From the NCBI RefSeq assembly GCF_037392515.1, contig NC_090280.1, positions 23,007,118-23,071,117 on the forward strand: a stretch of DNA of 64,000 bases. Direction: 5' to 3'. The position numbers and the translations under genes were made by a program. The stretch comes from Haliotis asinina. Taxonomy: Eukaryota > Mollusca > Gastropoda > Lepetellida > Haliotidae. A model generated the notes under the pieces. That model did no database searches. It was not told the DNA's origin and worked only from the letters and a program-made list of their open reading frames with translations. Shown here one piece after another: positions 775-56,044 of the stretch (positions within the stretch are counted from its first letter, which is position 1; every line of letters starts with the position of its first letter).

Positions 775-817
775 ATGTTTCTGTTATACGTTGTTACCGG
801 AGGGCTATATGTGGGTG
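775..817 (+). CDS. Locus A signal-peptide exon
   Basis: ATG at 775 opens 14 codons plus one base (MFLLYVVTGGLYVG) before a GTAAGT donor at 818. Gene B has a signal exon of exactly the same 43-nt length (56044..56002, MFLGVTASVALYGF), which decides this start. The exon ends in phase 1, matching the next exon. The hydrophobic stretch is short, so secretion signalling is probable, not certain. Confidence 0.65.
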
Positions 818-3800
818 GTAAGTATCTTGTAGTTGGCATTTTACGTTATGTCCTTTCAATTCGTAACATTCTATCAATTGTAAACCGCACATGACGTTTT
901 GATGATGAGCATATTGCTTTGCATACAGGTTTTGTCTACATGACAGCTGGATACGAACACACTGTTGCGCGCGTAGGCGACGATGTCGGCGTAACCATGA
1001 GCCCAACGAATGTCAGCTTCCCATGTTACGCATGGGTGAATGGTTCGGTTGCTGTGAGACTGTTACAGGTCGTGCCCAGAATGCATCGTTTATTAGTACT
1101 CATTAGTGTTCACTCCGGCTACAGGATCACGTACGGAGTGACGGACTCACTGTCACGGCTGAGGTTTACCATCAGCAATGTTACTGTGCAAGACGCTGGT
1201 ACCTACTACTGTCAAGGAACCGACGGACACAGTGCTGCAGGATGTACACAGCTCCTCGTCGTAGCGCGTATGTAGTAACGTGGAATTAACAGAATAATAT
1301 TTTAAGGGGTTCAACGCTTTAACCGTTTAACATTTGATGGATAATAGTGATAAATAGTATATACATTTACAAAAGTATAAAGGATTTATTAAAATCTTGA
1401 CACTCGTGTTAAGGTCTCGGTGAATTTCACATTTTACACAGAGAAGCCAACCACACCTACCACCACCGGACCTGCCTCGCCTGTATCAGATGAGAATGTC
1501 ACCCTCACATGCTCCTCCTCCTCTCGGAGTCTACCCCAGGACCATCACCCACTGACCATGACCTACATCTGGAGGAGGGACAGGACCATGCTAGAATCTG
1601 GTGATGAGTCTCCTACAGGTGGAGATGACCTGACAATAACCCACGTCAGCAGAGAGAACCAAGGAGACATCTACAGGTGCCAGGCTGTGGAGGAGGGGCT
1701 GGAGTCTGACTGGAGTCACGGACATGTACTGGATGTCCTCTGTGAGTAAGAACCTACCTTCTTTCGATATAGTTGAGTTGAGCTGCACTTTACGCTACAT
1801 CGGCGTTATTGCAGCCATATAGGAACCTCCTGGATGTAATATGTGCAACTGTGCGACAGTTTTGTAAGAACTGTTTCTGGTTTTGTTTGAAAAACAACAT
1901 TTCTCTCCTAAAAATCAAAGCCTTTTTGCTGGAATAAATCTATAATCTTAATAGTCTTGTCAAAGTTTCAACTACATAGAACTTTTAGTTTTAGAAGCCA
2001 AGTCTGAATGCATGCATGATCACTAGTCACTAAAAACAGTTCCATGTCGCTGTAGCTCACGTGGACATGTTTTACAAATTTTAAAGGGGGTGAGTGAGCG
2101 AGTTACGGGAGCTTTTAGCGGTGTTCCATATCAGTTGCCCATATAATATTTCTTAGCAATAAATACGAAGGATCATTCACTCACACTAATGATGACGGTA
2201 TATGACGTCATAATAACAAGTACTTCCCTAGATTTATATTCCTCGGGTGAAGGTGGTGTACCCTGTTGGATAAAGCGTTCGCTCTTGGCACCAAAGATCT
2301 GGGTTCCGTTTTCCACACGGCCTCATCGTGTGAAGGCCATTTCTGGTGCTCCCCGTCGTGATTCTGATGGAATATTGCTAAGTGTTGTAAGGTCTTCAGG
2401 CCCACATAACACAACGCAGATACGAGGGGCTGTCAATAAGTTTTGAGCCTTGAGCATTTTTCATACCTAGGTGTCACAACCTATGGTACGACATTGAACC
2501 TTGGGGTGTAGCTGATGTGATATATAAGTTTTGGTATCCTACTCTCAGAAGTTATTGAACAGCTCTCATTGACAGAAAGAGACCCCCCTCACGGCAGTGA
2601 AAATGATTAAAATTGAGTATAGAGCAGTAATTAAGATTTTAGTTCTTGAAGGAAACTCGGCGAAGAACAGTGAAAAAAGGCTTTCAGCAGTTTATGGGAA
2701 GTCTTCTCCTTCATCTGCTACCATCAAACGATGGGTCAATGAATTTAAGCATGGTATAGAGAGTCTTGAAGATGACTCCCGTCCAGATCGCCCAACAACA
2801 AGCAGTAGTCAGGAAAACTTTGTCAGAGTGCATAGACATGTGCTGGAAAATCGTCGAATCACACTCCACGAGTTAGAGGAGACCACAGGCATTTCACATG
2901 GATCCATCGAGACAATTCTTCATGAACATCTCGTCATGTCTAAGGTGTGCGCAAGATGGGTGCCAAGAATGCTTATAGATGAAATGAAGCAAACAAGGGT
3001 CACCATGAGCAACTCCATGCTAACCAGATACGACAAGAATCCAGAAGATTTTCACTTTAGGCTAGTAACCTGTGATGAAACCTGGATCCACCACTATGAT
3101 CCTGAGAGCAAACAAGAATCCATGGAATGGAAACATGTCACTTATCCCAGGAGCAAACAGTTCAAAGATCAGTGCAGAAGGTAATGGCGACAGTCTTCTG
3201 GGATAGCAAAGGCGTCACCCACATAGATTACTTACCAAAAGGAAGAACAATGAATGGGGAATATTACGCTAACTTGTTGAGGCAAGTGCAACAGTCAATC
3301 AAGGAGAAGCGCCGGGGCAAGATCAGACGTGGTATTCTTCTACATCAAGACAATGCGCCAGTACACACCTCTCGCGTTGCAACTGCTGCTGTCCAGGAAT
3401 GCGGGTACGAAATCTTGCTGCATCCCCGCTACTCTCCAGACCTGGCACCAAGTGATTACCATCTGTTCCCAGATCTCAAGAAACACTTGCGTGGTCGTAG
3501 ATTTCAGGATGATAATGAGCTTATTGCTGCTACTGAGGCTTGGTTTGAGGACCAAAATGGCGCCTTCTACAGAGATGGCATCAGCGCCTGGCAGAAAAGA
3601 TGGAACAAGTGTCTTGGCTCACAAGGGGACTATGCTGAAAAATAAATGTGGTTCATACCAATATTTTGTGTTTTTCTATGCAAGGCTGAAAACTTATTGA
3701 CACAAGACGTTTACTGGACGAAGACAAAGACAAGACTGACAACAATCGAAAAACGATCTCGCATCACAGTTTATGAGTCCACGTGCAGGTGCACGCTGCT

Positions 3801-12800: not shown

Positions 12801-15800
12801 ATCATTCCAGTTAGGTATAAGGTGTGTTCTAAGTTTGTCATATTTTGGCAGAAACGTTTGAACTTTTTTGGTGTTTTGTTTTTCGTACCATTCGACAGAA
12901 CTCTAACTGAAGTAATCATCAACGATTAATACGATGTGCAAGGTCGGTGTTGCTGGGCAACAAGCCATTGTCTGTCCACTCCATATTACTCGCCTCCTTC
13001 CACAATATGAGGTAAAATGTGTTATATCTTACACGAGGTCAGAAAGAAGGCCCAGGAAGCTGGGTCAGAATGCGGTCCTTTGTGAACATAACTGTTATCA
13101 TAACTATTTTCTAGTAATTCATTCACACATGCTCTTGGCCGAAATCTGAAACCGGGACACCAAGCTCCCAACTGAGAACCATACTTTTATATCGTGGTCA
13201 GTGTTGATTGAGTTTGGTTTTACGCCCCTCTAATTGGCAATATTCCAGCAATATCACAGCAAGGGAGACGGAAAATGAACTTCACACAATGAACCCATGT
13301 AGAAAATCGAACCCGAGTGTTCGGTGGGGCCAGTGAAAGTTTTAGCCACTAGGCTGCCCCGCCGCCATTTCTGTATGATAAAGAAGTCTTGTGAGGACAT
13401 GTAACTAGATAAAGACATATCAGATCACAAAATCTTTAAAACGTCCTAAAGGACATGGTAGCGGTTGGTTTTATGATGTACATTCGTCTAGAATGGAAGA
13501 TAATGAGATCGTATTTTATATTAAAGAAACTGTTTATACTGTACGAATGGAACATTTCCATCAAAATACGATAGTCAGGCGTTCGTAAATCCAAACGAAT
13601 GTTTTAAACGTTCGTGGCATGTTTACGGTACTTCAGAAAACTGCCATTAAAATTAGAAGCGGCTTGTGGCAATCATGTGCTGCTACAAATATCAGTGATA
13701 ACGAAAGTCAACGTCTGTTATACATTTGTTGACTTCATGAAATTGGTGAAAAGACGAAATAGATGCCAATCGCAACATCCCATTACGAAGTCTCGAAGCT
13801 GGAACGTACCAGACCGGATTTGCAAATCCCATCAACGTACACAAGAACACCATATCTCGTTAAATTAACCACCTCAAAGCAATCATGAATGTGGGGTAGC
13901 CTTGTGGGTAAGGCCTTCCATGTGGGTTCGATTCCCAACATGGGTACAATGTGTGAAGCCAATTTCAAATGTTCTCAGCTATTGCTGGAATATTGCGAAA
14001 AGAGGCGCAAAACTAAACTACTTACTCACTCACTCACTCACTCACTCACTCACTCGTCTCTAGTATTGTGATCAACCTTCAGCTGTCGGTGTATAGCCCA
14101 TCTATAGCCCATTCTTCTGTCTCTAGTGATAGTCTGTATGATAGCGTACTAGTTTCAAATTAAGAGACGTGATAATCTAATATTTTACTGTCCAGTGATG
14201 ACAGCTTTACGTTAAAATTATATTGATTTTAATATTGATATAAATGAAATAGTTCTCGTCACGATATTGCTGCGATATAACTTGCAAAACATCGCAACAA
14301 TCGTGTCTTTTATCAACCTCACTGCCATATACTACTAACGATACTGCTGGACATGTGTATTCTATGTGCTGTTGATCGACCAAACAACATGAAATTAGAC
14401 ACCAAAGTATTTGTTCCTTTGTTGAGTAGGGAGTGAGTAAGGTGAGTGAGCTAAGTTTTACGCCGCACTCTACAATATTCCAGCTCTATGTGGCGGTCTG
14501 TAAATAATCGAGTCTGGACCAGACAATCCAGTGACCAACACCATGAGCATCGGTCTATGCAACTGGGAACCGATGACATGTGTCAACCAAGTCAGCGAGC
14601 CTGACCACACGATCCCGCCTTTGTTGAGAAGTCTGCACCGACGACGCCGACGTGCAGCATGGAGCAACACCTTGCATGTGTGGAGAAAATGGCGTTGTGT
14701 CAGGAGCAATGATGATTCGTGAATTCTCCCTCAATGCTGAAATTGTTGGTAGCCTGTCGTCTGACGTCAAATGAAGGATTGAGCACTTTAAGACAGGTCG
14801 ACAGGTTTGGTGTCGAAAGTGTGAAAGCGTGGGGAATCATATCCTTGGGAAGATCTACAGGGTGGCGGTTCAGGGAACTGGTGCAGGGACCATATTTTTC
14901 AAACGGCAGACATCGTAGGATCTTAATCCGATACAGCATCTTAGTGTTTGCATTGAGGTCAACATCAGACTGAAACACGTTTACAATGCATTGCGGGAAG
15001 AATGGCAGAGAAATCCACATAACATAGTACAGAGAAGTGATGATCGACAGCTCACTGAGTGGGCATCTTACGACAGGGCAGTTAGCATTGCCATTATGTG
15101 ATTATCACCATAATGTCATCTTTGTATCAATCAAAATGGATCAAATATGCAATTACGCGTATTTATTTTTCAAAGTTGGCCTTTATGTTTCTTTTCTGTA
15201 TCGTGTACTAATTATGCTGACATGTTTCAGCTTCTTATACCAACACTGTGGCCCGTGTCGGACAAAATGTCAACATGACCTGGAGTGTCAGTCAGTCAGT
15301 TCAGGATTTTAAGATAACATCTATCACATACAAACAACAGACACCCAACAGAAATGATTCCACTGTCCTGTTCATTGTGGATGAACATAAGCTTCAGTCT
15401 ACAAGTGTCAACACACACACAGAGAACGGGACGAGGATTCAGTTGAATGTCAGTACATCTATGGAGGGGAGGAAGCAAGTCATTCTCACATTCCACAGTG
15501 TTGACGTACAAGACGCCGGAGTCCCAAATATAAATATAAATTCCGCATCAAAAGCGTGTGTTTTTGAGACACATTGATAGAAATTTGACGGTCACAGGCA
15601 GATAATCTGCGAAATAATAATCCATACTTACACAGGAACTTTTATCATTATAGCATTATAGTTTAATGTCGTTTACACAGACGTCATTGCAAGAACTAAT
15701 TACGTTAGCGATGAAGCTATAAAGCTTCATCCTGTAAAAGAATCCAGATGAAATATATCTTATTATTGTTGAAGGGTAAACTATGACACTGGCCAATCTT

Positions 15801-18800
15801 CTTCCATGGCACTTTCATGAAGGTGTTGCTTGTGTTTTATGACACCTGACCTTCCTTTCTCCTTACAGATGTTTTGTAACACCTGACTTTCCCCTCTCAC
15901 TACAGACGCTTTATAACACCTGACCTTCTCTCCGTGCAGACGCTTTATAACACCTGACCTTCCTCTCTCCCTACAGACGTTTTATGGACAGTACCACGGA
16001 TGTGGTCAGCGATTCTGCCTCACTACATTCATTATCCATCTGTTATTGCTTCCTTGGGAATGCATAGAAGTTATGTCGGGAATGACGTTCACTAAGATCA
16101 ATTCATATATACTCTCCGTTCAAACGACATTCTGGCATATGATGACTTAATGTCACTGAATCTATCGTACAAATTCATATATCATTCATAATTAATAAGA
16201 ATAAGGACAAGATTACAACCATTTCCATTCATCTTTTCACAGAGAAACCATCAAAACCAAACATCATCACGACTGTCGCTGACCCTGTATCCGGTGATCC
16301 TGTCAACCTGACCTGTTCCACAACCTTCCGGAGTCTTCCTGCAGACCAGTCTCTGTACCGATATACTCTGAACACGTCCTACACCTGGAGGAGAAACAAC
16401 AGCAGTGTAGACAGCAGGGTAGACAACAGAGTGCACGTGGACGGACAATTCCTGACCATAGACTACGTCACCAAGGAGGACAAGGGAGTGTACTCTTGTC
16501 AATCTGGAGAAGAAGGACTACTGTCAGACTGGAGTCGGGGATACACACTCAGTGTTTTATGTGAGTTCAGTTTGAGTAATGTTGAAACAATAACTAGAAG
16601 CTAGATGTTTCTTCATATATAATCCTCAAAAAATCTTATTCTACTTCATGTGTTGTCACTATCAACGTTTGATGCCTAACTTCAAGTGAACATGAAGCTT
16701 GCCCATTCGATTATACACAGAAAGTACAAACTTCCTGAAACGGATTATTTATGGAAAGACCCGAGCTATTGTGTCTCGAGATATCGCCAGAGAAATTCCG
16801 ATCCGATTCATCATCACACCTTATCATATTGCAATTGCTCAGCCATTCTGCACATATACACATAAATAGAGATTATCACCTTCGCCTCTACTGATATCAA
16901 TTATATAAACAGAGTCTATATATTGATAGAGTTACAAAGGCGTTCCCAGGATATCTTTATTTTTATCCACGTGTGTGATATCAGTAGACTCGAGGTTGGG
17001 ATTCGAGTTATAATCAAATATCATTCTTCAATCTTGAATCCCTTTGGAAGACAGCCACACTAGATATATGGTGGCATGGTTATGACAGAAGAAAATTTCA
17101 AATTATTATTTCTGACCATCTCACATGCATTCCAGATGGACCTGACCAGATACACTTTGACGGCACAAGGGACAAGCTGCAGATAGAGGAAGGGAAACAT
17201 GTAACAGTGAGATGTTCTGCTGACTGTAACCCTGCCTGTTCTGTAACCTGGATGGAGATATCCAGACAGGTGGTGATTACAGGACACAGGGAGGCTGTGT
17301 TGTCTATAGCAGCTGTAGATGTGTCTCTGTCTGGACAGTACACGTGTCACGTCAACAACACCCATGGGAGTGCATCACGCAACCTGAAACTGGAGGTCCT
17401 CAGTAAGACCTGCACACATTCTTTAGTAACATAATATGTAACATTTAAAGTTGTATTTGGACAAAACCTGTAATGACACTATTCACAATTAGTAAACATT
17501 TCAACCCGTAGTACTCATTAAGAATTCAATTTTGACCATTATGCAATAGAAACATTACGCCAAGGTTCTCAGTTATCAGCTACAATCCCAGGAGCGTTGA
17601 CTCGTCACGCTTATAACCTAGGTTCGAATCTCCACATGGGTACAATATATGAGGCCCATTTTTGGTGGACCCCTTTGTGATGTTGCCAGAATATTGCTGA
17701 AAGCGGCGTGAAAAAAAAAGAAGTCAGACAGTCAGTCCAACAATCTCAAATGTTTCTGTTTGTCCTATAAACTGAAAATATACTATGAAAAGAAAACGTG
17801 CAACGTGACAAAAGGAAATATTATTATAGATGTCGTTTGGAAGTGCCACCGTATACCCTTTGTAATATTACGTATTGTGGAATACTGAGAGACATCCAAA
17901 GAAAGAACGTGCCATGCACACGTACAGAAAGTGGATACGGTATTGCCGATATAGTAGATCAGGTATTGCATATTTGCATTCAAAACAGGATTAGACACAT
18001 ACTAAACTTCATGGTACATATTAAATGTTTCAGTACGTGAGCTTAATGAATCTGGTGTCGTTTCCATGGTCCGCGTGGCTGCTATCTGCTCCGTCCTGAT
18101 CGTGGTCATCGTCGTTGTCGTCATAGTCGTTGTTTGTAGAAAACACAGACTCGGGGGTAATACGTGTGATGTGAGAGTGAATGAGAAGTGTTCCACGGCG
18201 GTATTTTAGAATCTTGCGTTCGTGTTTGTCTGTACGTGGTATTATTAAATTTATGTTATGCCATGATTCAGCTTGACTTTATAACCAAGGAATGCATACG
18301 TTCAAAAGCACTTCTTTCGCACTTCCAATTGCAAGTAGGGGCGGTGGGGAAGCCTAGTGGTTACAGTGTTTGCTCATCACGCCAAACACCTGGGTTCGAT
18401 TTCCGACATAGCCACATAGGAAAAATATGTGAAACCCATTACTGCTGTCCTGTCCTATTGCTGAAATGTTGCTAAAACTAAACTCAGTCACTTAGTTGCA
18501 AAATTTAGTACTTTAAGGTGTGTTGCGATTATTCCCTGCATGTGTTATTCTCTGCAATCTTAATAGCACGGTGTTCAGGCATTGATGTTAACAAGAAAGG
18601 AAGAAAGTCGCCTCTTTGTGGCGAAAAGGAACCTGAGTAAAGCCTTTAATGCAGTGTTTATACCCTTTAAGAGACACGATTATTGAGTGACATAAACTCA
18701 TCCGAGAAGTCATGTGAAATAAACGCCACCTGTGTTGTATCTACTTGATATTTTGCTCCGTTTCCTGACCTAACAATTGTGTAAAGAGTCTAGAATTGTT

Positions 18801-35975: not shown

Positions 35976-35999
35976 TGTGAGTAGGCTTGCAAGCGCACG

Positions 36000-36040
36000 C
36001 ATGCACACGCACGCACGCACGCACGCACACACGCACGTCT
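36000..36040. repeat. (CACG)n microsatellite
   Basis: 'cacgcacgcacgcacgcac' run; a shorter version sits at 55385-55420. Confidence 0.8.
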
Positions 36041-36120
36041 TTATATATCCTTAATTACGTTTTAATGTAGGCGTATCCTTTTACTTATATACCGTTCTGT
36101 TAACTCCACTCAGTACTCAC

Positions 36121-36456: not shown

Positions 36457-36817
36457 CTGTCTACGAAAAGGTAATTAGAATCAGAACTTAGTGATTCTAC
36501 ATACGTTGACACGTTAGACGTTGCGAAACATTAAACTGAAAAGCAGCTTAAATAAGAGATTCAATATATTTTTCACTTTTTGAAGACACATACATACCAA
36601 ACCCATATAGTGCTACGGACACAATGAAACCCAGAAACAATGTCACTACTACGGTGAGCAGAAACTGACAGATGCAGTTTCTGATATAATGCGTCACATG
36701 ATGTAGTTTCACTGGACAATATTTCCCTATAAACATTTCCCAGTGAACCTTACGTTGTGCTACAATATTGCTCTGTGAATAATATATGTTTTTTTGTGAA
36801 TATGTCCTCCATCAACG

Positions 36818-40299: not shown

Positions 40300-40648
40300 G
40301 CGCTACAACGAGGACATGTCTACATCCAGTAACTTCCTGTCCATTGTTTCCCTGACAGTAGTAAGTACCATCGTCCTGTACAATAACATTGTAGATGGTA
40401 AACCTCAGTTGTCAGGTCTGTGATGGTGAGTCCTCCTCGGTGTATCTGATCCTGGTCCTGTAGCCGACTACTGTTGAGTACATCTACACGGTGTGACTTG
40501 GACTGGACCAGTAACAGTCTCTTAGATACCGAACCATTCACCCATGCATAATATAAGAAGCTGACATTGTTTGGGTTCATGGCCATGGTAACATCTTCAC
40601 CAACACGTGTAACAGTGTATGGGTATCCAGGTGTCATGGAGACTAGAG
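40300..40648 (-). pseudogene. Copy D V-like Ig exon, frameshifted
   Basis: Begins after CAG with the family start (LVSMTPGYPYTVTRV) and ends at a GTGAGT donor, but is 349 nt instead of a multiple of three. An indel around 40462-40478 shifts the frame. In the original frame a TGA replaces the Gly codon before the QLRFTIY segment (near 40415). No other exon of the family lies nearby: an isolated dead exon. Confidence 0.75.
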
Positions 40649-43600
40649 CTGCACTCAAAACAAATATTACTCATGAAAACAAGGCTGACATAAATATTCA
40701 AGCACATTATTTAAGCCCTCTCAATATATTACAAGTTGACAGATACATGGCACCTATACAGGCAAGCAAACGATATGTAAACCAGAAATTAAGGCGTCAA
40801 ACTATCTAATTTCTCTGAATAATGTTTTATTAGAGAAAACTGGTCACTTATAAAAAGTCATGTAAAGCTCATGTAATTCAACTAATGTTCTTTTAAGCTG
40901 ACAGGTACATGCCGCATGCACGTAAGCCCCAAAACAGAATGCAAGCCAAAGACCTACCTACAAGCGTGGTAAATTCATACTGACACATCACGCACTTTAA
41001 CAATTGTTTTCAAGAGATGAAATATTTAGTTTCGCTGGATAATATTCCCCTAGAAAAAACGGTAACTTCCGGTTGAAATTTAACACATGCCTACGAGGTC
41101 TTAACCTTTAATTAGGTGTTTACATTCATATGGACAGACAAGTAACGTTGATGACAGATTATTCACAAAACTGCTTTTGGTAGGTAATATTGCAGCTATA
41201 TCGCAGAGCTCTGTATATAATCGAGCCTGGACCAGACAATCTAGTGATCAATAGCATGAGCATCAACCTGCTCAATCGGAATACCATGGTATTTCTCAAC
41301 TAGGTCAGCGAGTCACCAGATTTCGTTAGTCAGACAGATTGTTTTATTCATTATGCCGGCCTGTTTGCCTATAATACAGTTTACAAATACAGTTTACAAG
41401 TTTGAAGATATTGTGAGGGAATAAAGCGGTTATTTGGAATATTCGACTGGAATAGTTAGTTGGCTATTATAAACATTTTGTAGCAGTGAAAACTATTCAT
41501 GCCGTATGTGCTGTTTCTTCTGACAAATGTGAAACATGAGGTTTTCAGTTTGAGTTTTAGGCCGACCAAAATTCTGTTATTGGTAAGAGCCGTGAGACTT
41601 TCATCACCTCACAGAAATTAGGCAAGGAGCACTTCAGTATACTCTGCTTTTTCTTTCCTGCCTTTATTGTATTTTCTCAAACCGGCATGGAATGGCTCGA
41701 TAACGTCCCAAGTGCTAAAACTGCCACATGTTAAGACATTAACTCGCAAGGTTCACCCGAAGAAGGAAGAAGTTCACTGACTGAAATGAGAAATTAAAGG
41801 GATTCCACAGGAGGACAGAGGGGGACTACAGAGGTCTACAGGTCCGACGATAAAAGTACAGTTTTAGTTGTTCTGTCGCCTCAAATGCCGCCTTATACCA
41901 AGACGTCTCTTTCCTTGAAGACCCTACGATACATCGAAAAGACCAGCCGCCGTTTCTGAACAGACCGATCCAACATTCATCAGAAGACAGCACTCTCTAC
42001 CAATCACGTCGCTGCCACCCACTTCCAGCTGCAGTCGGCGTTAGCGGTGTAGACGGGGGATAAAAGGCATTGCACGGAAGGAACGTGCCAGCCATACCAA
42101 GTCGTGGAAAGACTGTTCGTGTGCTGATGGCGTGTCCTAGTATTATAGCTGCCGTCCATAGTAAGGTCACGAATCTACAGACTTTCAGTTTGTGTCGTGA
42201 CTCTTTCCGATCTCATAATTTCAAGCATCTTTAGAAAAAAATAGGTATCTATTTAGAAAAAACGTCGTACATTTTGGACAATTGCCTAAGACAAACCCGT
42301 GGAATTAAAGGCCGGATTTTGATGAGAGATAGTGTACATTGACATGCATATTTATTCCCGTGATTTCACGGTTTGTATAAAAAAGTGGGAAGTTTATGCT
42401 CTAATTGTAGATTTGATCAACCATGAATGATTTTGGGAAGGATAGGAGTTTCTTCAAAAATGTTAAATGGCGTACAAGCTATATACACTCGAGAACCTTC
42501 ATGTGTTAAGCCTTGATTTGACGACAGGGTTATATATCCTTAGCCATATATCTATTCTCTTTCTAAATAGCATGTGAACTGAATACACATGTAAACCTAA
42601 TATCTAGTTTCGTCCGGAGATGATTGAACCGTTTTCATTATGGTTTGCCGAAAGGGATACGCATTTTAAATGGGATAAAACTGAAGTGGCTGTTTTAAAA
42701 CATGGTGGTATTCCCGTGAGAAGTGGCAGTTGGTATAATTGGTAAAAAAATCTCTCGAGTGCGTGCCATTGTATACGTATCTGGTTATTAATTGCTTCTA
42801 ATATATCATCGTGGAATAAGCATATTTGATGTGTTATTGAAAACTGGAGATATTAAAACTAACTGACCATGCTTCTCAGTCTTAACCATGTCAAAGTTCA
42901 CACTGGTAACGAATATCCGGGCCCAGTATCTCTAAAGCTAAGAGAACCAAGGCGTTGTGCGTTTTTCTGTATTGAGTGTATATGGCCCAGGGCCAAATCC
43001 CCTACCACATATGCCTTCGTGGAATACTTGCGACTGGCCATCGATGCTTCGTCCCAACTACATGACATAATCTCAATTTCACAACAAAACAACGCCATCG
43101 TAAGTTGTTTTTTTTTGTCTGTTAACGCGATTATCTGTGATAGCTAGAATAGAATAGAATATGGACTACAGTCACAAATCAGGGAGTCTAGTAAATTCAG
43201 TCAAGTATAGAACGTTACTGTCTTCTAGTCCGAGAAGTCTTTACTGTTGCTATTCTATGTTAACTTTAATCAAATGAACATATCTTTACTGTTTGTTTCC
43301 CTTTACACTAACTTCAGGTTGATGTGCAACGGTTCAGCCTTTATCGTATGGTTCATGTATTCTGCGCATTAATGTTTAAATTTGTTTATATAAGACTCTT
43401 AACACTACGTTGTTTTGTGAAAATGTAGATTCTGTGAACGTCCACAGTGGTGACGTGTAGAGTATTAATTGAACAATTATCCTGACCATTCTAGTATCTG
43501 TAACAAATCTACATGTCATGTGTAGGTCCTTTAATGGCTGATTGCTCTGTGAACATGTTGTAATAATTAATTGTAAAAGATTTTGTTAACGCTTAACCAA

Positions 43601-47004: not shown

Positions 47005-47195
47005 AGACGTGTAGACGTGGAACTGTACCGTCAGTTTAGGTTTCACCTGGTACTGTGGTCCTGTGTTGAGGAAGATGAAGGATGGAGAGACGTGTAGACG
47101 TGGAACTGTACCGTCAGTTTAGGTTTCACCTGGTACTGTGGTCCTCTGTTGAGGAAGATGAAGGATGGAGAGACGTGTAGATGTGGAACTGATCC
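47005..47195 (-). repeat. 83-base tandem repeat across the gene B stop codon
   Basis: 'gtagacgtgg' recurs at 47011 and 47094 and 'gtagatgtgg' at 47177, a period of exactly 83. The coding end (FHIYTSLHPSSSSTEDHSTR and TGA) lies in the first unit as transcribed; the others are 3' UTR. Confidence 0.8.
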
Positions 47196-47309
47196 CCCAG
47201 GAGTCGTTCGTAATCGTATAGGGGTAAGACATCGTTGTTGGAAGCACGAGGTACATCACTGAAGTCATGGGATAATCTCTCTGCCATCACAGTGAGATAT
47301 TCACCAAAT
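47126..47309 (-). CDS. Gene B terminal exon
   Basis: 184 nt. FGEYLTVMAERLSHDFSDV at the start, YDYERLLGDQFHIYTS later, TGA at 47128..47126. Closely similar to the locus A terminal exon. Confidence 0.85.
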
Positions 47310-50300
47310 CTGTAATCACAACATTACACTTATGTTACACTTGCCCATAGGTGCATGTATTTTTCTTTCAAGCAGTGTGCAACGGAAATCACCTCCTATA
47401 AACCACTTCAACTATGGTCATAGATTTCCAACACTTTTTTTTAGCAAATTGTGCATCAGTTACATAGATACATTTGCTACTTTCTCTGTCATTTCCACAG
47501 GTAATCGATGCCGGCGTTTATCTAAGATTTCTAAAGGTACGTTGACTAAATGGTGTTTGACACAGAAGACAGCAACCGTTGATATGAAGATTTGTTCACT
47601 AGTTATTACGATGACTGACTCCAGCACTTAAAATAAAAACATGAAAACGTGTACCTGTTGTCCTGGTTCTCTGCAAGTAAAACAAAAGACAGAGCAACAG
47701 TAAAGAATTAGTCGCTCTCAGACTAGTCCATCAACATCACCAAAACTAGAACACCATAAATATGGCTTCATTATGCTCATATGGGGAATCGAACCTGCGT
47801 CTGTGGCGTGAACACCCTATCCACTGGCCTACCGACCGCTCCATTACTGAATAAAGGAATCAAAACAACTTCACAAACTAAAATGAGAAGAAAATATTGC
47901 AGCACGTCAAGGTGAACCACGGATATGCCCGTATACTGTTCGACGCTGCATTCAACAATATCCCAGCTAGACTACGCTTGTCTGATACACGCCAGACTTG
48001 CCGAGAACACCCAGTGGTTGATATAAAGAGCGTCGATTTACGCAACTGGGATACGTCGGAAAAACATGCATGAGCATAATCAACCAGCGTTTCTCACCTG
48101 TTGTAACAAGCATGGTTGTTGAAGTTCTGACCAGGCCCTCACGTTGGGGTAAATTTTTGTTGGTTGTGGTGTGTTGGGGATTGGAGGGGTGGGGGTTGAA
48201 ACTTACATTGCATGCAAAAATATTCATGCATTCGTTGTACCTTTCACGTCCCTGCAAACAAGAACAGTGACTGCTGCCACCACAACTGCCACAGCAGTCA
48301 GCATAATGGAGTAGACAGCTACGATGGGGACGATGTCGTCTACGTTTGCATCACCTTCTGATACAAGACAAAGATGACACATATCTGTATTAAGTATGAT
48401 AATTCATGTGACAATATAGCGACGTATTTCACCATGGTGTATTTTCTAGTTCCTGTTACAGCACTAAATAACTTTATGACATAAATAATGTCAACTGACA
48501 AAACAGTATTTTGCTCTACAAGAACTATGACACAATAAAGTAAGCAAGCGATGAATAAGGAAGAATCATTCACCGGGATGACCATTACAGCTCTCCAGAC
48601 TAGTGGATCCTTTTCCCCAACACGGCCTATCACCAATATCTGGTAGTGCTTTATGAACACTGAGAAATGTCCTAAGTATTCGGACATCTAGAATATCCGA
48701 CTCTATTTACAATGTTATAGCTATTTTATTATGGCTATTCCAGACTAAATAATCGGGGGTTTTGGTATCCTTGGTTGGTTTGAGACACGAGTCCTGTTCC
48801 AGGCTTTAGACACTAGCCAGTTCGTGCTACGTTTACTCGACATATCAGTACCCTATACGGCAGTTCGAGTTTCACAGTCGTTACACATCATGCTAGTTGT
48901 TAACCTTCAAACACCAACCTTCTATTTCCTGGTAGCTCCCATCGTTTTCGTCTTCCCTGTGATACGACACCACACTGCTAAAAGGGAACATTGAACGTGA
49001 GCATAATGAGAGGAAATTATTAAGCTGTGACACGCTATCAGTTCATATCGCGCTCCTAGTCGTGTATAGTTTTGTCTGGTTGGTTTGTTCTTTAACGCCA
49101 CACTCAGCAATATGACAACTATATGTTGACGATCTATAAATAAATGGTCTTGGATCACATAATCCAGTGTTCAACAGCATAAGCATCGATCCCGTTCGTC
49201 AGCTTTTACGACAAGTATGGGTTGATGGAAATCACTTTACCACGGGTAATTACACCAATGTGGTGATGAAATATTTATTCATCTTACTTGAAGATTGATG
49301 AACATACTCACCGATGACGAGCACATCCTCTCTCTGAAAGTTTAAAGTGTGTGGGAACAATTATGCATACAAACTTAAAGTATATATTTATTTCTTGCAC
49401 ACTGATTTTACCATTTTTTCTCCATTTAGAAGTTTAAGAGTTTAAGAGATACTGTACATCATACGGTATGAGTTTCAGTAGAAGGTCAATCAGTGCTAAT
49501 AGTTGTCAGAATTATAAAATGTTAATAGACCTGTAGTTTTGGTTGCAAACGGTTCCGGACTGTTTTTCAGACATTCTACATAACACTACCCCTTAAATAA
49601 TTCGAATGACCTGTTTAACGTCATCTGAATCAACCGATGTGACGTACTAGAATGACGTCCAGCACCAACCTACTATCTCCTCGTAGCCTCCGCCTGTGTC
49701 TGCGTCACGGGTGTAAGTGACAACGCTGGGGGAAGGAAATGTAGAAAGTGGTTGGAATCAAGAATATTTACAAAAAACAATCAGCTGTCCTCAGACACAA
49801 AGTTTTGCAAAAGGACAAAATAGTTGTTACAGTTATATGTATGAATGTGTTCACAAAATGGGTAAGCAAGTTATCAGTATTTGAAGCTCTTCTAACGTTT
49901 GCCTGAAAGAACGAAATCTTTTTGACACCAACAGCTCATTAGCGATGTGCCATTAATTCTGCTTGGGCTTATGCCTCACATATACTGCTACTGATAAGTG
50001 AAATAGAGCTAATCAAATCACTGTATTTGTGATTAAGTGTTTCCACAATAGCAGCTACTACATAAATTTAAGTCAGCTGTTTACACATTTGGCCTTACTC
50101 ACCGATTATATGTGCATCCTCTACCTGAAACAAATAATTTTGTGTAAATAATGACATATCCACAATGTTAGATGCAAAATAGAAGATAAACGAATTTCCG
50201 GTATAATTATACATCTTTGAAGTGGAAATAAATATCTTGCTATTTGTAGAACGACATGTTTATAGAACGACATGTTTGTACAACGACATGTTTGTAGAAC

Positions 50301-53300
50301 AAACGCAACCTGAGTAACACCAGTGTCTTGAAGCATGAATGTCGATTAAAACTAGTGTCCTGGAGCCAATGTAAACATAAACTTGGAAACTGAAGTCCAT
50401 TAAACATGTAAATTTGTGCACACTGCTGATATATATCCTCTTCAAGCATCATCTTGAAGGTTCCATACAGAATTACTTTAGAAACGCGAGTATCATATTA
50501 TCATTCATTATGGAGGATGCAAAACGAACAGAAACTGTGCTCAAATTAATCTGACTTTCACAGATGAACTTGACGCATACCAAGAACTGCCCACGTGACC
50601 CACCATTTGCTGGAAATCAACTTTTCACCTGCAAAATCCGTGAAAATGCGTAAACGTGGCGTTTTCACAACACATTGTCAGATCAGTCAACTGTGTACCA
50701 AAATCACACCGAAATTTTGAACTTCACCAAATTGCTGACTTGGGCACAACATGTGATCGAGCACATCTTTGCCAACCATGTGTCCAGCCCGAGATCGCCG
50801 CATACAAGTTCAAGCCAGCCTCCAGAACAGATATTACCATTCATGGAAGAAGGGATATCGTCAGTCTCCAGACGGTACGATAGCGATTACGTCAGCAAGG
50901 GCTGCGTGCGCATAAGTATTCTATTCACTGACGAGTCCTGATTTCATCTCAGTCATGCGTATACAAGGATCAGAGTGACATGGACAGCGTAACGGTGATT
51001 GTTGAGTTCAGCAGCGTTGAGGGAAGCGTATTACTAATGATTTGTTGAGAGACTGATAGTCATGACAGGACACGTGTGGACGTCTGCCGTAGTCGAGTTA
51101 CAGCTCAAAATGATACTTACTGAGAACAAGAGTCGTTCCTGCTCCCAGCATGGCGCCAGATCAACGTCTTCACATTTTGCAGGAGGATTATGCAAATGAC
51201 GGTCATAACCGTTACTGACATTGGCTCTGTGAAAGTTTTGAGCGCGTTTGGAAATAAATTTGATCCCTTCAACGTTATCGTTAATTCAACTTTGCACTGA
51301 CTACTTTTGTTTTTTCTTGTGTTTCAACCCTAAATGACAATTTCAGTGTCAAGAGGGACAAGTTCTTTTCTTCGTTTAAAACGGAGATTCAACGTCTTAT
51401 CCCAATGGTGCGTTTCTAAAGTAGTTCAGTATACTTCACAGTCTCCTCTCACAATCTGTCCTCTTTCAAACTCTTCCTTAAAGACGGTCTCAGATTCCAT
51501 TTCCCCACAAGAGACTTGGTTTTCTTCCTTGATGAATATTCACCATCAAGGACACTTTTACATTTAATCAAGATACACCACAGACACGTCACAAATCACA
51601 CCTAGAGAGAATCACTTAATATAGGTAGGACAAAAATCATCATTTCCTTGAAAATGTATCACATGTCAGTAGGAAGTGAAATAATTATCAGCTAGCTTTC
51701 TACTGAGTATGGGTGGAAATAGACATCAGACTCTACATACCAAAGTATCTTTACATGTTTTGCAGACAAAGAAGAGGCATCAAATCAGTCCTTATTAGTA
51801 TTGTTTAACATTTCTATAGGTGCATAGATGTACATGAGTTGTGGGGTAAAACGTTTTAAAGTACTACTCTGGTAACTATCTGATCCCCCATCCCCACCTT
51901 CCTAACCAGCGCGTCGTTTTCCCAGACTGTCATACATTATTCACTACATATAAGAAGTGCAAAGGGATAACTTACTGACGATGCACTGAACACATACACA
52001 CGCACACACGCACACACGCACACACGCACACACGCACACACGCACACACGCACTCACGCACACGCACAAGCATCCACTCAACACGCTATTAAGTGAGATC
52101 GGTATATGTAATTACTGAACCAAAGTGTTTGTGAGTTCTAGTCATTCACTGTCACATCACACCGTTTTACCTCCACGTCTCTGTTTTCTACCAACAACAA
52201 CCATGACGACGACAGTGATGATCACGATCAGGATGGAGCAGACAGCAGTCACTGGGACGATGGAAACGACACCAGATTCATGAAGTTCACGTGCTGAAAC
52301 ATTTAATATGGACAATATTCAGTTCAGCATTTTATAATCACGTTTGCTTTTTCCAAAAATAACATCCAAGATATGTTGCTTTATTTAAGGTACATGATCT
52401 GATTACAAAATACCAGAGATATAATTTATACCAGGATTACAGATATAACCAGTGCTGCCCCGTATCTGCGAATTTGAGTGGGTGGGTGAGGGAGTGAGGG
52501 GGTGAGCGGGTAAATTGGTGGGTATGAGTGAGTGAGTAAATGAGTGGAGTTTTATATCACTTATAACCCAGAAACATCACCCCTCTTAAGAAGATTTTAA
52601 TTAGGTTCATGGCATGTCAACTGGGTTGACCCTTCCGATGTTCATCTAAAATGACACTTTCCAACTCCAATACAACCAGTTGCGTTCTCGATACAACACC
52701 CATCGATCCATCTTCATAGCGGGATCCAATAATAATGGTCAAGTTGCCAGTGCTACTGTCATTGCATCCATTTGAAGGGAGTAAAAACTTTATTACATAT
52801 CTCATGCAAATATAATCTTGAATTTTACATATTCTGTCACAAAGCATGTTTCCGGAATCTGTGGAGGCCTTACTGAAGACCTCTAGTGTCAGGTTGCGTG
52901 ATGCACTCCCATGGCTGTTGTTGACGTGACACGTGTAATGTCCAGACACAGACACATCTACAGCTGGTATCGACAACACAACCTTCCTGTGTCCTGTAAT
53001 CACCATCTCTCTGGATGTGTCCCACCAGGTTACAGTGCAGGCAGGGTTACAGTCAGCAGAACATCTCACTGTTACAGGTTTCCCTTCTTCTACCTCCAGA
53101 TTGTCCCTTGTGCCGTGAAACTGTATCTGGTCAGGTCCATCTGCAAAGCATGTGATATAATCAGAAATAATAATTTGATAACTTGATATTTTCTTCTATT
53201 ATACCAATACCATTGTATATCAATTTCACTTGAATTAATATTTCATCAACTTTCGGTTTAGACTTTTGAAGTTGGTTAGGTTTTATTTTTTGCTCAATGC

Positions 53301-56044
53301 CTATTCCACTTTTAGTGTTGATCACATCTACATCTGCTAGCCTTGTCGAGTCTAGGCTCACCAATATAAGACTCCCAGTTTCAAAGATCTTACTGTTGTC
53401 ACGAAAATATTACATTCAAATGCAAACGACGACACATTACACACATTCTGTTTTTGTTCCTCTAAGTCATACGTGTACGTATCAGTCAGGTATTCCGACT
53501 GGATGGTCGACCGAGACCGCAGCAGGGCAAACGTCAAATGTTTTCTTTCTACGAGCTGGATAGCCGCTCAACTGTGATTTTGTTAACAGTGGGAATCTAC
53601 AGTCAACTGTATTTTGCATGTACACGTCCGATATTGTCATTTGTATGCTCCGCCTGACCAACGTTGACAGTTCGAGTCATGTATTATCTTGACGTTCCTG
53701 TATATCTCATCTCATGCCCTTACGATTATATCTCTAATGATCAGTGCCTGTACCAGATATTGTCAACGTTTCATGCATTTTACCGTATTCTTAATTGTAA
53801 ACCCAATGTTGTCACGATTTTAAAAAGAAGCGTTTTTGAGGACAAAAGCCCCATGAGTGAGTGGGTTGAGTTTTACGCCGCACTCAGCAATATTCCAGCT
53901 ATATAGCAGCGGCCTATAAATAATCGAGTCTGGACCAGACAATCCAGTGATCAATAACATGACCATCGATCTGCGCAAATGGGAACCGATGACATGTGTC
54001 AACCAAGTCAGCGAGCCTGACCACCCCATTCCGTTAGTCGCGTCCTACGACAAGCAGAGTCGCCTTTTATGGCAAGCATAGGTTGCTGAAGGCCTATTCT
54101 ACCCCGGGACCTTTACGGGTACTCGTCGATAAATCACTGTAGATTATTTTTCCCATAATTTTCCCATAGTTTTCAGGGTCAAATCACACACTCCTGACAC
54201 ACACACCCGTTCTTACTCACAGAGGACATCCAGTATATGTCCGTGACTCCAGTCAGACACCAGACCCTCCTCCACAGCCCGGCAAATGTAGGTGTCTCCC
54301 TGGCTCGCTCTGCTGACGTGGGGTATTGTCAGGTCATCTCCACCTGTAGGAGACTCATCACCAGATTCTAGCAGGGTCATGTCCCTCCTCCAGATGTAGG
54401 TCATGGTCAGTGGGGGATGGTCCGGGGGTAGACTCCGGGAGGAGGAGGAACATGTGAGGGTGACATTCTCACCTGATACAGGTGAGGCATGTCCGGTGAT
54501 AGTAGGTGTGGCTGGCTTCTCTGTGAAAAATGTAACAGATGATCCGAGACTTTAACACCAGAGCCAATAAACATGGTTTTACTAAATGTGTGGTTGGCCT
54601 CTCTGTGAAAAACGTTTTAAAATATGAATCCAATGAGACATGATAAACTGAATGAACTAAATGCTCTGACACTTTTATTTATTAAGTATTCGCCTTTATT
54701 GTCAATTAAATAAGCGCCAGCGACTCCCTAATACTCCTAACCGGTTTGTTGATTAAAAGTACATGTACGACACAACTACATTCCCCTTGGTCAAATGAAT
54801 AAATCTTTTGCCCGGAGAGAGGGGGTTGGCTGGATTGACCCCAAGGTGCGTCGCAAAAATCACGTTAGATATGCTGGATGTTGTTACAGACAGATAGTTT
54901 ATTTGACATATCACAGGATCTGAAAGTATAAAACTAGCACGCTCCTGGCGTTCAGAGAAGTTGTCTAGTCCATCACAGCGTTCCATCAGCTCACGTCTGA
55001 TATCATCACATAGTGGACATCTTAAAAGGACATGACATTCGTCTTCGTCTTCATCTGTACAAATAGAGCATGTTACACTTTCGGGATTCGGATTAGACAG
55101 GTGGATTCGGATATACTGCGAGTAAGTTGTTGGTTGGACTGTTGTTTTAACACCGCACTTAACAACATTCCATATATATGTCGGCGATCTGTAAATAATC
55201 GAGTCTAGACCAGACACCCCGGTGATCAACATCATGAGCATACATCTATTCAATTGGGATACGATGACATGTGTCAACCAAGTCAGCGGATCTGAGTACC
55301 CGATCCCGTTAGTCGCCTCTTACGACAAGCAAGGGGTAATGAAGATCAATTCTACCCCGGATCTGTGAGTAGGCTTGCAAGCGCACGCATGCACACGCAT
55401 GCACGCACGCACACACGCACGTCTTTATATATCCTTAATTACGTTTTAATGTAGGCGCATCCTTTTACTTATATACCGTAATTCTGTTAACTCCACTCAG
55501 TACTCACGTGCTACAACGAGGACCTGTCTACATCCAGTAACTTCCTCTCCATTGGTTCCCTGACAGTAGTAAGTACCAGCTTCCTGTACAGTAACATTGT
55601 AGATGGTAAACCTCAGCTGTCCGGTCTGTGATGGTGAGTCCTCCCCGGTGTATCTGATCCTGGTCCTGTAATCGGTGTGACTGTTACTGAATACCATTAC
55701 ACGGTGTGCCTTGGGTTTGACCACTAACAGTCTCTTAGATACCGAACCATCCACCCATACACAATATATAAAGCTGACATTCTCTGGGTTCATGGCCATG
55801 GTAGCGTCTTCACCAACGCGTGTAACAGTGTATGGGTATCCAGTTGTCATGGAGACTAGAGCTGTATACGAAAAGGTAATTAGAATCAGAACTCAGTAAC
55901 AGTAGATACGTTGACACGTTAGACGTTGCGAAAGATTAAACTGAAAAGCAACTTAATCAGAGATTCAATATATATTTCAGTTTTCGAAGACAGATACATA
56001 CCAAACCCATATAGAGCTACGGACGCAGTGACACCCAGAAACAT
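47126..56044 (-). CDS. Ig-domain transmembrane receptor gene B (complete)
   Basis: Minus-strand exons: 56044-56002, 55861-55508, 54520-54221, 53140-52874, 52293-52171, 50124-50103, 49725-49670, 49333-49312, 48957-48920, 48357-48241, 47670-47655, 47309-47126. They sum to 1542 nt, a continuous frame of 513 residues. Order: signal peptide 1-14, V-like Ig 15-132, C2-like Ig 133-232, I-set-like Ig 233-321, transmembrane 322-362, tyrosine cassettes 363-408 (YEEI, YQEI), second transmembrane 409-447, tail 448-513 (YLTV, YERL). Every junction has AG/GT, and lengths equal those of locus A except in the V exon. It is convergent with locus A. The likely role is a cell-surface receptor recruiting SH2-domain proteins. 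Skipping either transmembrane exon keeps the frame. No named orthologue recognised. Confidence 0.8.
47655..47670 (-). CDS. Gene B micro-exon 3 (16 nt)
   Basis: Between 'ttacttgcag' and GTACAC on the minus strand; encodes about ENQDNR across its borders. Confidence 0.65.
47770..47845 (-). mobile_element. tRNA-type SINE 1 head
   Basis: Minus strand: 'ggtaggccagtggatagggt' and B box 'caggttcgattcccc'. Only the tRNA-like head is clear. Confidence 0.5.
47945..48110 (-). mobile_element. SINE 2, strongly decayed
   Basis: 'tcaacaatatcccagct' and 'gtcgatttacgcaactggga' match the family; the middle is scrambled. Confidence 0.45.
48241..48357 (-). CDS. Gene B second transmembrane exon
   Basis: 117 nt, phase 1-1. 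DANVDDIVPIVAVYSIM, a Val/Ala-rich helix, then CRDVK. See the locus A counterpart. Confidence 0.85.
48920..48957 (-). CDS. Gene B tyrosine exon 2 (YQEI)
   Basis: 38 nt encoding REDENDGSYQEIE, identical in protein to locus A. Confidence 0.85.
49092..49232 (-). mobile_element. SINE 2, decayed
   Basis: 'gccacactcagcaatatgac' and 'agcttttacgacaagtatgg'; intronic. Confidence 0.5.
49312..49333 (-). CDS. Gene B micro-exon 2 (22 nt)
   Basis: After 'actttcag' on the minus strand, ending at GTGAGT; encodes about ERGCARHR. It differs from locus A (ETGYADYR) and resembles micro-exon 1 instead. Confidence 0.65.
49670..49725 (-). CDS. Gene B tyrosine exon 1 (YEEI)
   Basis: 56 nt, phase 2-1, encoding VVTYTRDADTGGGYEEIV. 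YEEI is the textbook optimal ligand of Src-family SH2 domains when phosphorylated. Confidence 0.85.
50103..50124 (-). CDS. Gene B micro-exon 1 (22 nt)
   Basis: Between 'gtttcag' and GTGAGT; encodes about GRGCTYNR. Confidence 0.65.
50247..50303. repeat. 18-base tandem repeat, three copies
   Basis: 'gtagaacgacatgttt' units with small changes, in an intron of gene B. Confidence 0.7.
50640..51250 (+). mobile_element. Decayed Tc1-like relic
   Basis: A plus frame shows ILFTDES, a stop, then FHL at about 50918-50950 (family LFTDESRFHL). Upstream and downstream blocks look like other parts of a Tc1 transposase in shifted frames. Many breaks, no inverted repeats seen. It lies in a gene B intron; locus A has no equivalent insertion. 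Confidence 0.45.
51990..52075. repeat. (CACACG)n microsatellite
   Basis: Long run of 'cacacgcacacacgcacaca' type, next to the first transmembrane exon of gene B. Confidence 0.85.
52171..52293 (-). CDS. Gene B first transmembrane exon
   Basis: 123 nt, phase 1-1. Stalk RELHESGVVSIVPVTAVCS, Ile/Val-rich helix, then GRKQRRG. Confidence 0.9.
52617..52873 (-). other. Intron read-through frame after the gene B I-set exon
   Basis: Unspliced reading from the 52874 donor stays open for 84-85 codons to a stop at 52617. Intron retention would therefore give a soluble receptor with a long novel tail. In copy C the same frame stops after about 22 codons. The length may be chance. Confidence 0.3.
52874..53140 (-). 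CDS. Gene B I-set-like Ig exon
   Basis: 267 nt, phase 1-1: YGPDQIQFHG, VTVRCSADCNPAC, VTWWD, SGHYTCHVNNSHG. Ends GTAAGG. Confidence 0.9.
53853..54123 (-). mobile_element. SINE 2 copy
   Basis: Same insertion as 33487-33770: 'gagtgagtgggttgagtttt' tail to 'ccccgggacctttacgggta'. Confidence 0.75.
54221..54520 (-). CDS. Gene B C2-like Ig exon
   Basis: 300 nt, phase 1-1. KPATPTITGHASP linker, VTLTC, YIWRRD, YICRAVEEG, ending SDWSHGHILDVL. Confidence 0.9.
54753..55130 (-). mobile_element. LINE ORF2 C-terminal fragment (better copy)
   Basis: Open minus frame with CSICTDEDEDECHVLLRCPL, DDIRRELMERC and ERQERASFILSDP. A zinc-knuckle-type end of a LINE reverse-transcriptase protein. Present in both duplicates, so older than the duplication. 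It lies in the intron between the V and C2 exons. Confidence 0.5.
55145..55355 (-). mobile_element. SINE 2 copy beside V exon B
   Basis: 'tgtcggcgatctgtaaataa' to 'gttagtcgcctcttacgaca'. Equivalent to 35770-35975. Confidence 0.65.
55508..55861 (-). CDS. Gene B V-like Ig exon
   Basis: 354 nt, phase 1-1. VSMTTGYPYTVTRVGED, MAMNPENVSF, YCVWVDGS, a six-residue longer middle than copy C (NSHTDY), then VQEAGTYYCQGTNGEEVTGC. No strand-B cysteine. Confidence 0.85.
56002..56044 (-). CDS. Gene B signal-peptide exon
   Basis: 43 nt from ATG at 56044 to the GTATGT donor: MFLGVTASVALYGF. An upstream in-frame ATG (56137) would add 31 residues (start MTIRKYCPVK). The 43-nt length shared with locus A favours the downstream start. 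Confidence 0.7.

Follow-up and report, generated by a model that had tools for sequence, protein, structure and literature searches.

The 64,000-nucleotide stretch of DNA analyzed here (the window) lies inside a gene cluster whose sequence points to a germline family of activating-type immunoglobulin (Ig) receptors, probably comprising at least 55 paralogues clustered on a single chromosome in a gastropod-like mollusc. A preliminary description of the window had proposed four loci sharing one exon plan in a tail-to-tail arrangement. The arrangement is correct, because the plus-strand and minus-strand groups converge (Table 1). That all four share the plan was not confirmed: gene D is complete and gene B matches it in the lengths of its tail exons, but the remaining loci are fragmentary or damaged, and gene D is the only intact locus of the four. 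The preliminary description had overlooked two features, an ITAM-like motif at the C-terminus and, within the tail, a second transmembrane (TM) exon.

Table 1. Coordinates of the receptor exons and fragments in the window
Unit	Feature	Position	Strand	Remarks
Gene D	Exon 1, signal peptide	56002..56044	-	begins with ATG, hydrophobic; GT donor
Gene D	Exon 2, V-like Ig domain without B-strand Cys	55508..55861	-	V-set 22.8 bits alone; strand order V-like in AlphaFold (pLDDT 69)
Gene D	Exon 3, C2-like Ig domain	54221..54520	-	
Gene D	Exon 4, I-set Ig domain, extra Cys pair (CSADCNPAC)	52874..53140	-	I-set 8e-11
Gene D	Exon 5, transmembrane exon TM1	52171..52293	-	hydropathy 3.1
Gene D	Exon 6, 22-nt microexon m1	50103..50124	-	
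Gene D	Exon 7, 56-nt tyrosine cassette (YEEI)	49670..49725	-	
Gene D	Exon 8, 22-nt microexon m2	49312..49333	-	
Gene D	Exon 9, 56-nt tyrosine cassette (YQEI)	48919..48974	-	
Gene D	Exon 10, second transmembrane exon TM2, TM1 homologue	48241..48354	-	at least 54 genome copies
Gene D	Exon 11, 16-nt microexon m3	47655..47670	-	
Gene D	Exon 12, C-terminal exon, ITAM-like DYERLLx6YTSL and stop	47126..47309	-	
Gene B	Type-2 V exon that has lost its donor and 3' end	15231..15525	+	
Gene B	C2 exon	16243..16560	+	
Gene B	I-set exon	17136..17402	+	
Gene B	TM1 exon	18034..18156	+	
Gene B	Microexon m1	18916..18937	+	
Gene B	Tyrosine cassette 1 (YQEI)	21031..21086	+	
Gene B	Microexon m2	21428..21449	+	
Gene B	Tyrosine cassette 2 (YQEI)	21716..21771	+	
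Gene B	TM2 exon	22825..22938	+	
Gene B	Microexon m3	23567..23582	+	
Gene B	C-terminal ITAM-like exon	23909..24092	+	
Locus A	Fragment	775..1741	+	signal 775-817, V 929-1267, C2 1442-1741 only
Locus C	Fragment	32513..36640	-	signal-like 36640-36598, V 36456-36121, C2 35124-34827, I 32779-32513; ends by eye
Isolated V	V exon	40320..40670	-	frame changes midway

Gene D (minus strand, 56044..47126) consists of twelve exons of 43, 354, 300, 267, 123, 22, 56, 22, 56, 114, 16 and 184 nt, with AG at all 11 acceptors and GT at all 11 donors. Joined, they give one open frame; the continuous twelve-exon frame described earlier holds, at 518 rather than 513 codons. Pfam searches of the 518-aa model detected Ig_3 (9e-20), I-set (9e-14) and V-set (4e-9), and these families, together with Ig_2 and ig, exceeded the curated cut-offs, which places the protein in the Immunoglobulin superfamily. 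The C2 and I-set exons, each searched alone, also cleared the curated cut-off.

Four of the five units in the window are fragmentary or damaged. Gene B (plus strand, 15231-24092) retains its whole tail, and its V exon, of a second type, has lost the 3' end and donor relative to the 14 relatives read. Ungapped exact-length scans found no I, TM or tail exons resembling those of gene D after locus A up to 15,200 (best 28-50% identity), and no TM or tail exons for locus C down to 24,092 (best 31-50%). Locus C also carries TTG at the start-codon position and a C2 exon of 298 nt instead of 300, out of frame. A single gene joining locus A (775-1741) and 15231-24092 is rejected, as they are two units, the second with its own type-2 V exon. 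Nor is the type-2 V a decayed type-1 V, because 17 further full-length type-2 copies exist in the genome.

We searched the 1.14-Gb genome with individual exons. The last exon returned at least 57 near-full-length copies at E values from 9e-35 to 2e-21, which excludes a chance origin. At least 55 of these lie within a single 1.22-Mb cluster surrounding the window (contig C1, 22.348-23.573 Mb), at a median spacing of 20.5 kb. Upstream of the 57 copies, TM2 was found in 54 and I-set in 51, and the whole chain of V, C2, I-set and TM2 preceded the last exon in order in at least 40. No stop was present in 56 of the 57 last exons, and all 20 type-1 V exons fetched, which were picked from the better-scoring matches, were open with AG/GT ends. 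Stop-bearing V copies occur elsewhere in the genome, and near-identical blocks of up to 99.9% are present among the copies, some of which could be assembly duplicates. In a relative at 25.39 Mb (L104), neither a cassette nor the C-terminal exon was found within 3 kb past its TM exon.

These exon counts are lower bounds, because 150 candidates were scored out of 328 for the last exon and out of 234 and 158 (V) in two further searches. For the last exon, 57 of the 150 were kept and 93 partial matches to the exon end, many in an 83-bp repeat, were dropped. After removal of weak, partial or distant matches, we retained 54 of 54 for TM2, 72 of 117 for type-1 V, 19 of 47 for type-2 V, 86 of 133 for C2, and 96 of 121 in one further exon search.

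We further analyzed the tail. In all seven genes read through, the exons from TM1 to the last one came in order, with splice sites and an open frame; the two TM exons, which are homologous, share a single frame with two YEEI/YQEI-like cassettes. A DNA pattern for the tyrosine cassette, chosen after the cassettes had been seen, had four matches in the window, where 0.01 would be expected. ITAMs follow the consensus [DE]x(0-2)Yxx[LI]x(6-12)Yxx[LI], and ITIMs [SIVL]xYxx[ILV]. The last exon was read in 35 of the 57 copies (37 rows less two repeats; 30 of them the best-scoring), and every one of these distinct genes encoded Yxx[LIVMF]-x7-Yxx[LIVMF]. The strict ITAM pattern was present in 29 and missed in six, and occurred in 129 of 20,000 shuffles of the exon; the ITIM pattern was absent from the 518-aa model of gene D. 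Searched alone against the PDB, the tail, which is presumably cytoplasmic, gave one chance match only (E 0.5). The earlier proposal of a molluscan recognition receptor with an Ig ectodomain and an SH2-ligand-like tail is well supported at the level of sequence by the YEEI/YQEI cassettes and the ITAM-like pair, and its role may be immune.

The two TM exons are clearly related, with a similarity of 57 against 30 +/- 4.9 for shuffled sequences and none of 2000 shuffles as high. Each has phase 1-1 and a length that is a multiple of 3. Each is read as N-out/C-in because its N side is acidic or neutral and its C side basic. A simple type I model sits badly with two in-frame TM exons unless splicing separates them, and most likely they are alternatives, used one at a time.

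The V domain departs from the canonical form. The V exon alone scored 22.8 bits (type 1) and 21.6 bits (type 2) with the V-set profile, under the cut-off of 26. The canonical B-F disulfide was absent from 22 V rows, where the B-strand position, in a register read by eye, lacked Cys and was mostly Met, and the canonical Cys pair was absent from 14 type-2 V exons. The structure prediction suggested earlier for the Ig domains was run on V: the AlphaFold model (pLDDT 69, pTM 0.63) had nine strands in V-like order, and a model from 22 close sequences reached pLDDT 35. Foldseek with the former showed 50 matches, mostly antibody and TCR V domains, at TM 0.51-0.61. For C2 and I-set together, the best PDB match was CEA (6e-19), including the VLYGPD linker, and titin, Dscam, Robo and contactin were also matched. 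That the host is a mollusc is shown by 16 molluscan haemocyanin beta-sandwich domains in two arrays of eight; the best PDB match of the haemocyanin units was 3j32, which we take to be abalone haemocyanin, and our claim goes no further than a gastropod-like mollusc.

Rates of change differed along the gene. Mean dN/dS, computed on exon sets from different genes and mixed types, was 0.68 for V, 0.63 for TM1, 0.59 for I, 0.45 for TM2 and 0.31 for the last exon, and thus below 1 for every exon measured. These values used 19 of 22 V exons (two of other length and locus A of the window were excluded) and 163 of 253 last-exon pairs; C2, with a single distinct sequence, was dropped. The last exon changes more slowly in protein than the V and I-set exons. 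Windows with pN/pS above 1 occurred at V codons 31-60 and 91-115, but they are not special to V, because the I-set exon shows them too (codons 1-20 and 31-55). Strong positive selection on the V binding face was initially indicated by regions picked post hoc (p = 8e-5), but weakened when the face was taken from the AlphaFold model (N/S 107/35 inside vs 78/42 outside, p = 0.045), with variants at p = 0.063 (narrower set) and 0.37 (strands alone). The selection signal on V is modest.

Based on these features, a complete gene would encode a type I membrane protein with a V-like domain lacking the usual disulfide, a C2 and an I-set domain outside, and two YEEI/YQEI (Src-SH2-type) cassettes and the C-terminal ITAM-like pair predicted inside. 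The V face may bind a range of ligands, carried by microbes, by parasites or by other cells. Receptor clustering would then allow a Src-family kinase to phosphorylate the tail, and the phosphorylated tail could recruit a tandem-SH2 kinase of the Syk type, leading to haemocyte activation. Use of TM1 with TM2 skipped would give a 480-aa receptor with cassettes and ITAM, and use of TM2 with TM1 to the second cassette (Y2) skipped an ITAM-only receptor of 425 aa. We tentatively suggest, as a possibility somewhat short of even, an analogue of the leukocyte receptor complex: more than 50 germline Ig receptors in 1.2 Mb with mutually exclusive duplicated TM exons, in which splicing alone toggles between ITAM-only and ITAM plus two Src-SH2 (YEEI) cassettes.

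Other explanations deserve consideration. A clustered, fast-evolving Ig family with the same tail signalling might instead serve allorecognition or gamete and cell identity, that is, self recognition or egg-sperm interaction and not pathogen sensing. We know of no allorecognition in solitary gastropods, and we regard this reading as rather unlikely, although the sequence does not separate it from pathogen sensing. Its appeal lies in the allorecognition complex of Hydractinia, a cluster similar to ours for which the available text of two papers describes a 41-gene Ig family (Alr) with V- and I-set domains, and ITIM/ITAM-type motifs on candidate genes there and in Botryllus (PMC11999971, PMC12065747). 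Alternatively, the genes could be ordinary neural or epithelial adhesion receptors, expanded by tandem duplication under relaxed constraint, with tail tyrosines acting as trafficking (Yxx-phi) and adaptor sites. Yxx-phi motifs do double as endocytic signals, titin, Dscam, Robo and contactin are among the PDB matches of C2 and I-set, and mean dN/dS was below 1 for every exon measured. However, the copies number more than 50 in a single cluster, the last exon changes least, and the seven-residue gap between motifs is constant in all 35 genes read, which makes this distinctly unlikely.

The two TM exons could also both be present in every mRNA, giving a two-pass protein with the cassettes in a cytoplasmic loop and the C-terminus outside. 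The unbroken frame in the seven genes read speaks for this arrangement, which is compatible with an immune role. Yet the flanking charges orient both exons the same way, their homology, phase and lengths speak against it, and it is hard to see why an ITAM-like pair outside the cell would be conserved, so we consider the two-pass protein improbable. Equally improbable is that the cluster is mostly a graveyard, in which recent segmental and transposon-driven duplication left many copies with few expressed. The damaged units of the window, the stop-bearing V copies elsewhere and the near-identical blocks fit such a history, whereas the nearly stop-free tail exons, the open V exons fetched from the better-scoring matches and the low dN/dS of the last exon do not.

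If the activating-type receptors are expressed in haemocytes, the cluster would, as far as we know, rank with the largest clusters outside vertebrates of germline Ig-receptor genes whose products carry an ITAM-like tail of their own, and it could provide these animals with a large inherited sensor set. It would also be a natural case of signal choice through TM-exon splicing, if that model is true. While FREPs draw most attention in molluscs, the cluster lets Syk-type signalling coupled to a diversified Ig repertoire be tested. FREPs are secreted. In the available text of PMC11999971 they are described as carrying fibrinogen; fibrinogen and lectin families were absent from the 518-aa model of gene D (Pfam, E up to 0.01), which is therefore not FREP-like, as the preliminary description had held, and differs from VIgL too.

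That description had also called the family possibly undescribed in molluscs. Among the papers listed by our literature searches, none reported this architecture at this scale, but ITAM-type Ig receptors and clustered Ig TM genes are each already published for molluscs. The oyster receptor CgIgIT2 (Crassostrea gigas), also cited as an inhibitory receptor in the reference list of PMC11999971, is described there as membrane-bound, with Ig domains on the outside, a TM and an ITAM, much as predicted for the cluster receptors. By that description it is one receptor with five Ig domains, whereas the cluster comprises at least 55 genes and its plan has three Ig domains, two TM exons and YEEI/YQEI cassettes. 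Ig-domain genes of the pearl oyster also cluster, often have a C-terminal TM and vary in copy number between haplotypes, but often contain fibronectin III domains, and the word ITAM is absent from the main text (PMC9646362). Among gastropods, Biomphalaria has PTC1/PTC2, and in B. sudanica single-pass genes form hyperdiverse clusters in which Ig domains are the only domains of some members; many, however, carry C-type lectin, FN3 or TMEM154, and the words ITAM and ITIM are absent from the main text (PMC10875847).

Our best reading, by analogy, is that the receptors would work like CEACAM or Hydractinia Alr proteins. By description, Alr shares with the cluster a large clustered Ig family, V- and I-set domains and ITIM/ITAM-type motifs, and differs in being cnidarian and in serving allorecognition; we know of no duplicated TM exon in Alr. 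CEACAM proteins begin with a V domain that lacks the canonical disulfide, continue with C2-type domains and to our knowledge carry no YEEI cassettes. The CEACAM family (CEACAM1/3/5) is vertebrate, and we claim homology for the Ig fold only. According to the available text of PMC5112662, the tail of CEACAM1 bears an ITIM and that of CEACAM3 an ITAM-like motif. The likeness of the cluster to CEACAM, seen in a disulfide-less V, an ITAM-type tail and the clustering of the genes, is relevant to the origin of such receptors.

Gene D, on the minus strand, has consensus splice sites and a single 518-codon frame. Clear Ig profiles were found in its C2 and I exons, and the V-set profile scored slightly below the cut-off on the V exon alone. 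Gene B, on the plus strand, carries a tail whose exon lengths equal those of gene D; its V exon, of a second type, has suffered loss of the 3' end and donor in comparison with the 14 relatives read. The three other family sequences in the window are fragmentary or damaged. Three blocks match at 90-92% between 32023-39367 and 52369-58737, from which we infer that the two minus-strand loci arose by duplication.

Family loci and repeated elements in the window
Feature	Position	Strand	Remarks
Gene D	56044-47126	minus	twelve exons: signal, V, C2, I-set, TM1, 22-nt, 56-nt, 22-nt, 56-nt, TM2 (114 nt), 16-nt, last (184-nt)
Gene B	15231-24092	plus	
Locus A	775-1741	plus	fragment
Locus C	36640-32513	minus	
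Isolated V exon	40670-40320	minus	
Minisatellite, 83-bp	47005-47191		end of gene D last exon repeated into 3' flank; 2.3 copies
Mariner/Mos1-like transposase ORF	2573-3645		two overlapping frames; adjoins locus A
Gypsy-like retroelement pieces	3975-7282	minus	Pfam integrase core and reverse transcriptase; zinc knuckle by eye
Transposase-like ORFs	24627-25635		immediately 3' of gene B; helix-turn-helix matches weak, below cut-off; DDE-like by eye
LINE-type element	59424-63711		CCHC-bearing ORF (CCHC seen by eye, no Pfam match), then endonuclease and reverse transcriptase, the latter running on in second frame
Short interspersed repeat (examples)	14428-14617, 5053-5307, 33485-33755, 53854-54118		about a dozen in window; ~100-270 bp, roughly 73-90% identity

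The family is clustered on the chromosome that holds the window (C1, with the window at 23,007,118-23,071,117). Near-full-length copies of gene D's last exon number at least 57 in the 1.14-Gb genome (75-100% identity; a lower bound, with 150 of 328 candidates scored), and one of them contains a stop. Fifty-five of them fall in C1 22.348-23.573 Mb at a median spacing of 20.5 kb, and the remaining two at 28.06-28.09 Mb; the genes occupy both strands, arranged in blocks. Upstream of these 57 copies we found TM2 in 54 (commonest distance ~1.1 kb), the I-set exon in 51 (mostly ~6 kb off), C2 in 50, V in 42 and a complete chain in 40, the V exon being sought within 6 kb of C2. Matches to the 83-bp minisatellite, which was not found after gene B, also occur 3' of many other tail exons (e.g. 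C1:22386449-22397331); because many of them show minisatellite-type spacing there, the sequence suggests a long array at C1:22.386-22.397 Mb.

Of the matches retained, 39 I-set and 26 V exons fall in a second array at C1 24.2-27.3 Mb, where no copy of the tail exon was found. In one gene of this array, L104, reading by eye gave V, C2, I and a TM1-like exon; the following 3 kb held no recognisable tail exon. Remote relatives lie at about 2.94-3.03 Mb. Many further C2-like exons (34-52% identity) occur at C1 about 7.8-19.3 Mb, and C1 may thus carry a broader landscape of Ig receptors. The genome also encodes haemocyanin in two arrays of eight units each, the host being a mollusc.

In each of the seven genes read, two of them from the window and five fetched, the tail exons from TM1 to the last followed one another in sequence, had splice sites and kept the frame open; the I exon was present in six, namely all whose stretch reached that far. 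Tail exon lengths were equal except for the last exons of two fetched genes, L109 and L110, whose stop lies past the compared 184 nt; copies elsewhere end at 184-196 nt. The first 56-nt cassette encodes YEEI in four genes, YQEI in two and YQQI in one, and the second encodes YQEI in all seven. The last exon encodes DYER[LV], seven residues and YxxL/F. Motifs were classed by the ITAM and YEEI-SH2 consensus patterns. Thirty-five distinct genes were compared, drawn from the 57 copies and including the 30 best-scoring (37 sequences, of which two were repeats); all 35 contained Yxx-phi-x7-Yxx-phi and 29 the strict ITAM pattern. The gene D model had no match to the ITIM pattern.

TM1 and TM2 are each strongly hydrophobic and of phase 1-1, and their likeness exceeds that expected from composition (score 57, reached by 0 of 2000 shuffles). 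Basic residues follow both, so that each is predicted to be oriented N-out/C-in. In the gene D model, skipping TM2 (480 aa) or TM1 to the second cassette (425 aa) keeps the frame. Given this homology, shared phase and orientation, and frame-keeping skips, alternative use of the two exons is the likeliest reading.

All 20 fetched type-1 V exons, a non-random sample of better-scoring genome matches, were open with AG/GT ends, and 14 of 15 fetched type-2 exons were recovered intact. The B-strand Cys was absent from all 22 aligned V sequences; a Cys pair spanning the F-G hairpin was kept in 20. AlphaFold, run on a mixed alignment, gave a model with the V strand order (pLDDT 69; an earlier first model failed), and this predicted fold is similar to antibody and TCR V domains. 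At three sites (locus A, C1:23422164 and C1:23267711; one a mere piece), a type-1-like V head on the plus strand precedes a type-2 V exon by 13.8-14.4 kb; these heads may serve as alternatives or may just be fragments that were co-duplicated.

Mean dN/dS, from differing, mixed gene sets per exon, was 0.68 for V, 0.63 for TM1, 0.59 for I, 0.45 for TM2 and 0.31 for the last exon. Windows above 1 occurred in V (codons 31-60 and 91-115, maximum 4.1) and in I-set (codons 1-20 and 31-55, up to 1.45). Tree-counted changes were 96/20 versus 89/57 for V regions picked post hoc (p = 8e-5) and 107/35 versus 78/42 for the V face of the AlphaFold model (p = 0.045); a narrower face gave p = 0.063 and strands alone p = 0.37. 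The selection signal on the V domain is suggestive only.

The best PDB match of C2 plus I, summed over three repeats, was CEA, and the layout is like that of CEACAM. It is also like that of fish NITR receptors. Fish NILT receptors (PMC3022915) and Hydractinia Alr (PMC11999971, PMC12065747) are described with a similar layout, and the nearest functional report in molluscs is oyster CgIgIT2, with Ig domains and an ITAM (PMC11999971); that review assigns it ERK signalling, and a title in its references calls it inhibitory. Other molluscan reports are of clustered Ig genes varying in copy number by haplotype in pearl oyster (PMC9646362) and of hyperdiverse clusters of single-pass genes, some of these with only Ig domains, in Biomphalaria sudanica (PMC10875847). 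Among the best matches listed in searches of open-licence literature, none described the present family. Because the known systems were compared by description rather than by sequence, we claim likeness and not membership: by analogy, the family may resemble CEACAM, NITR/NILT, Alr, CgIgIT2 and the mollusc clusters in the way it works.
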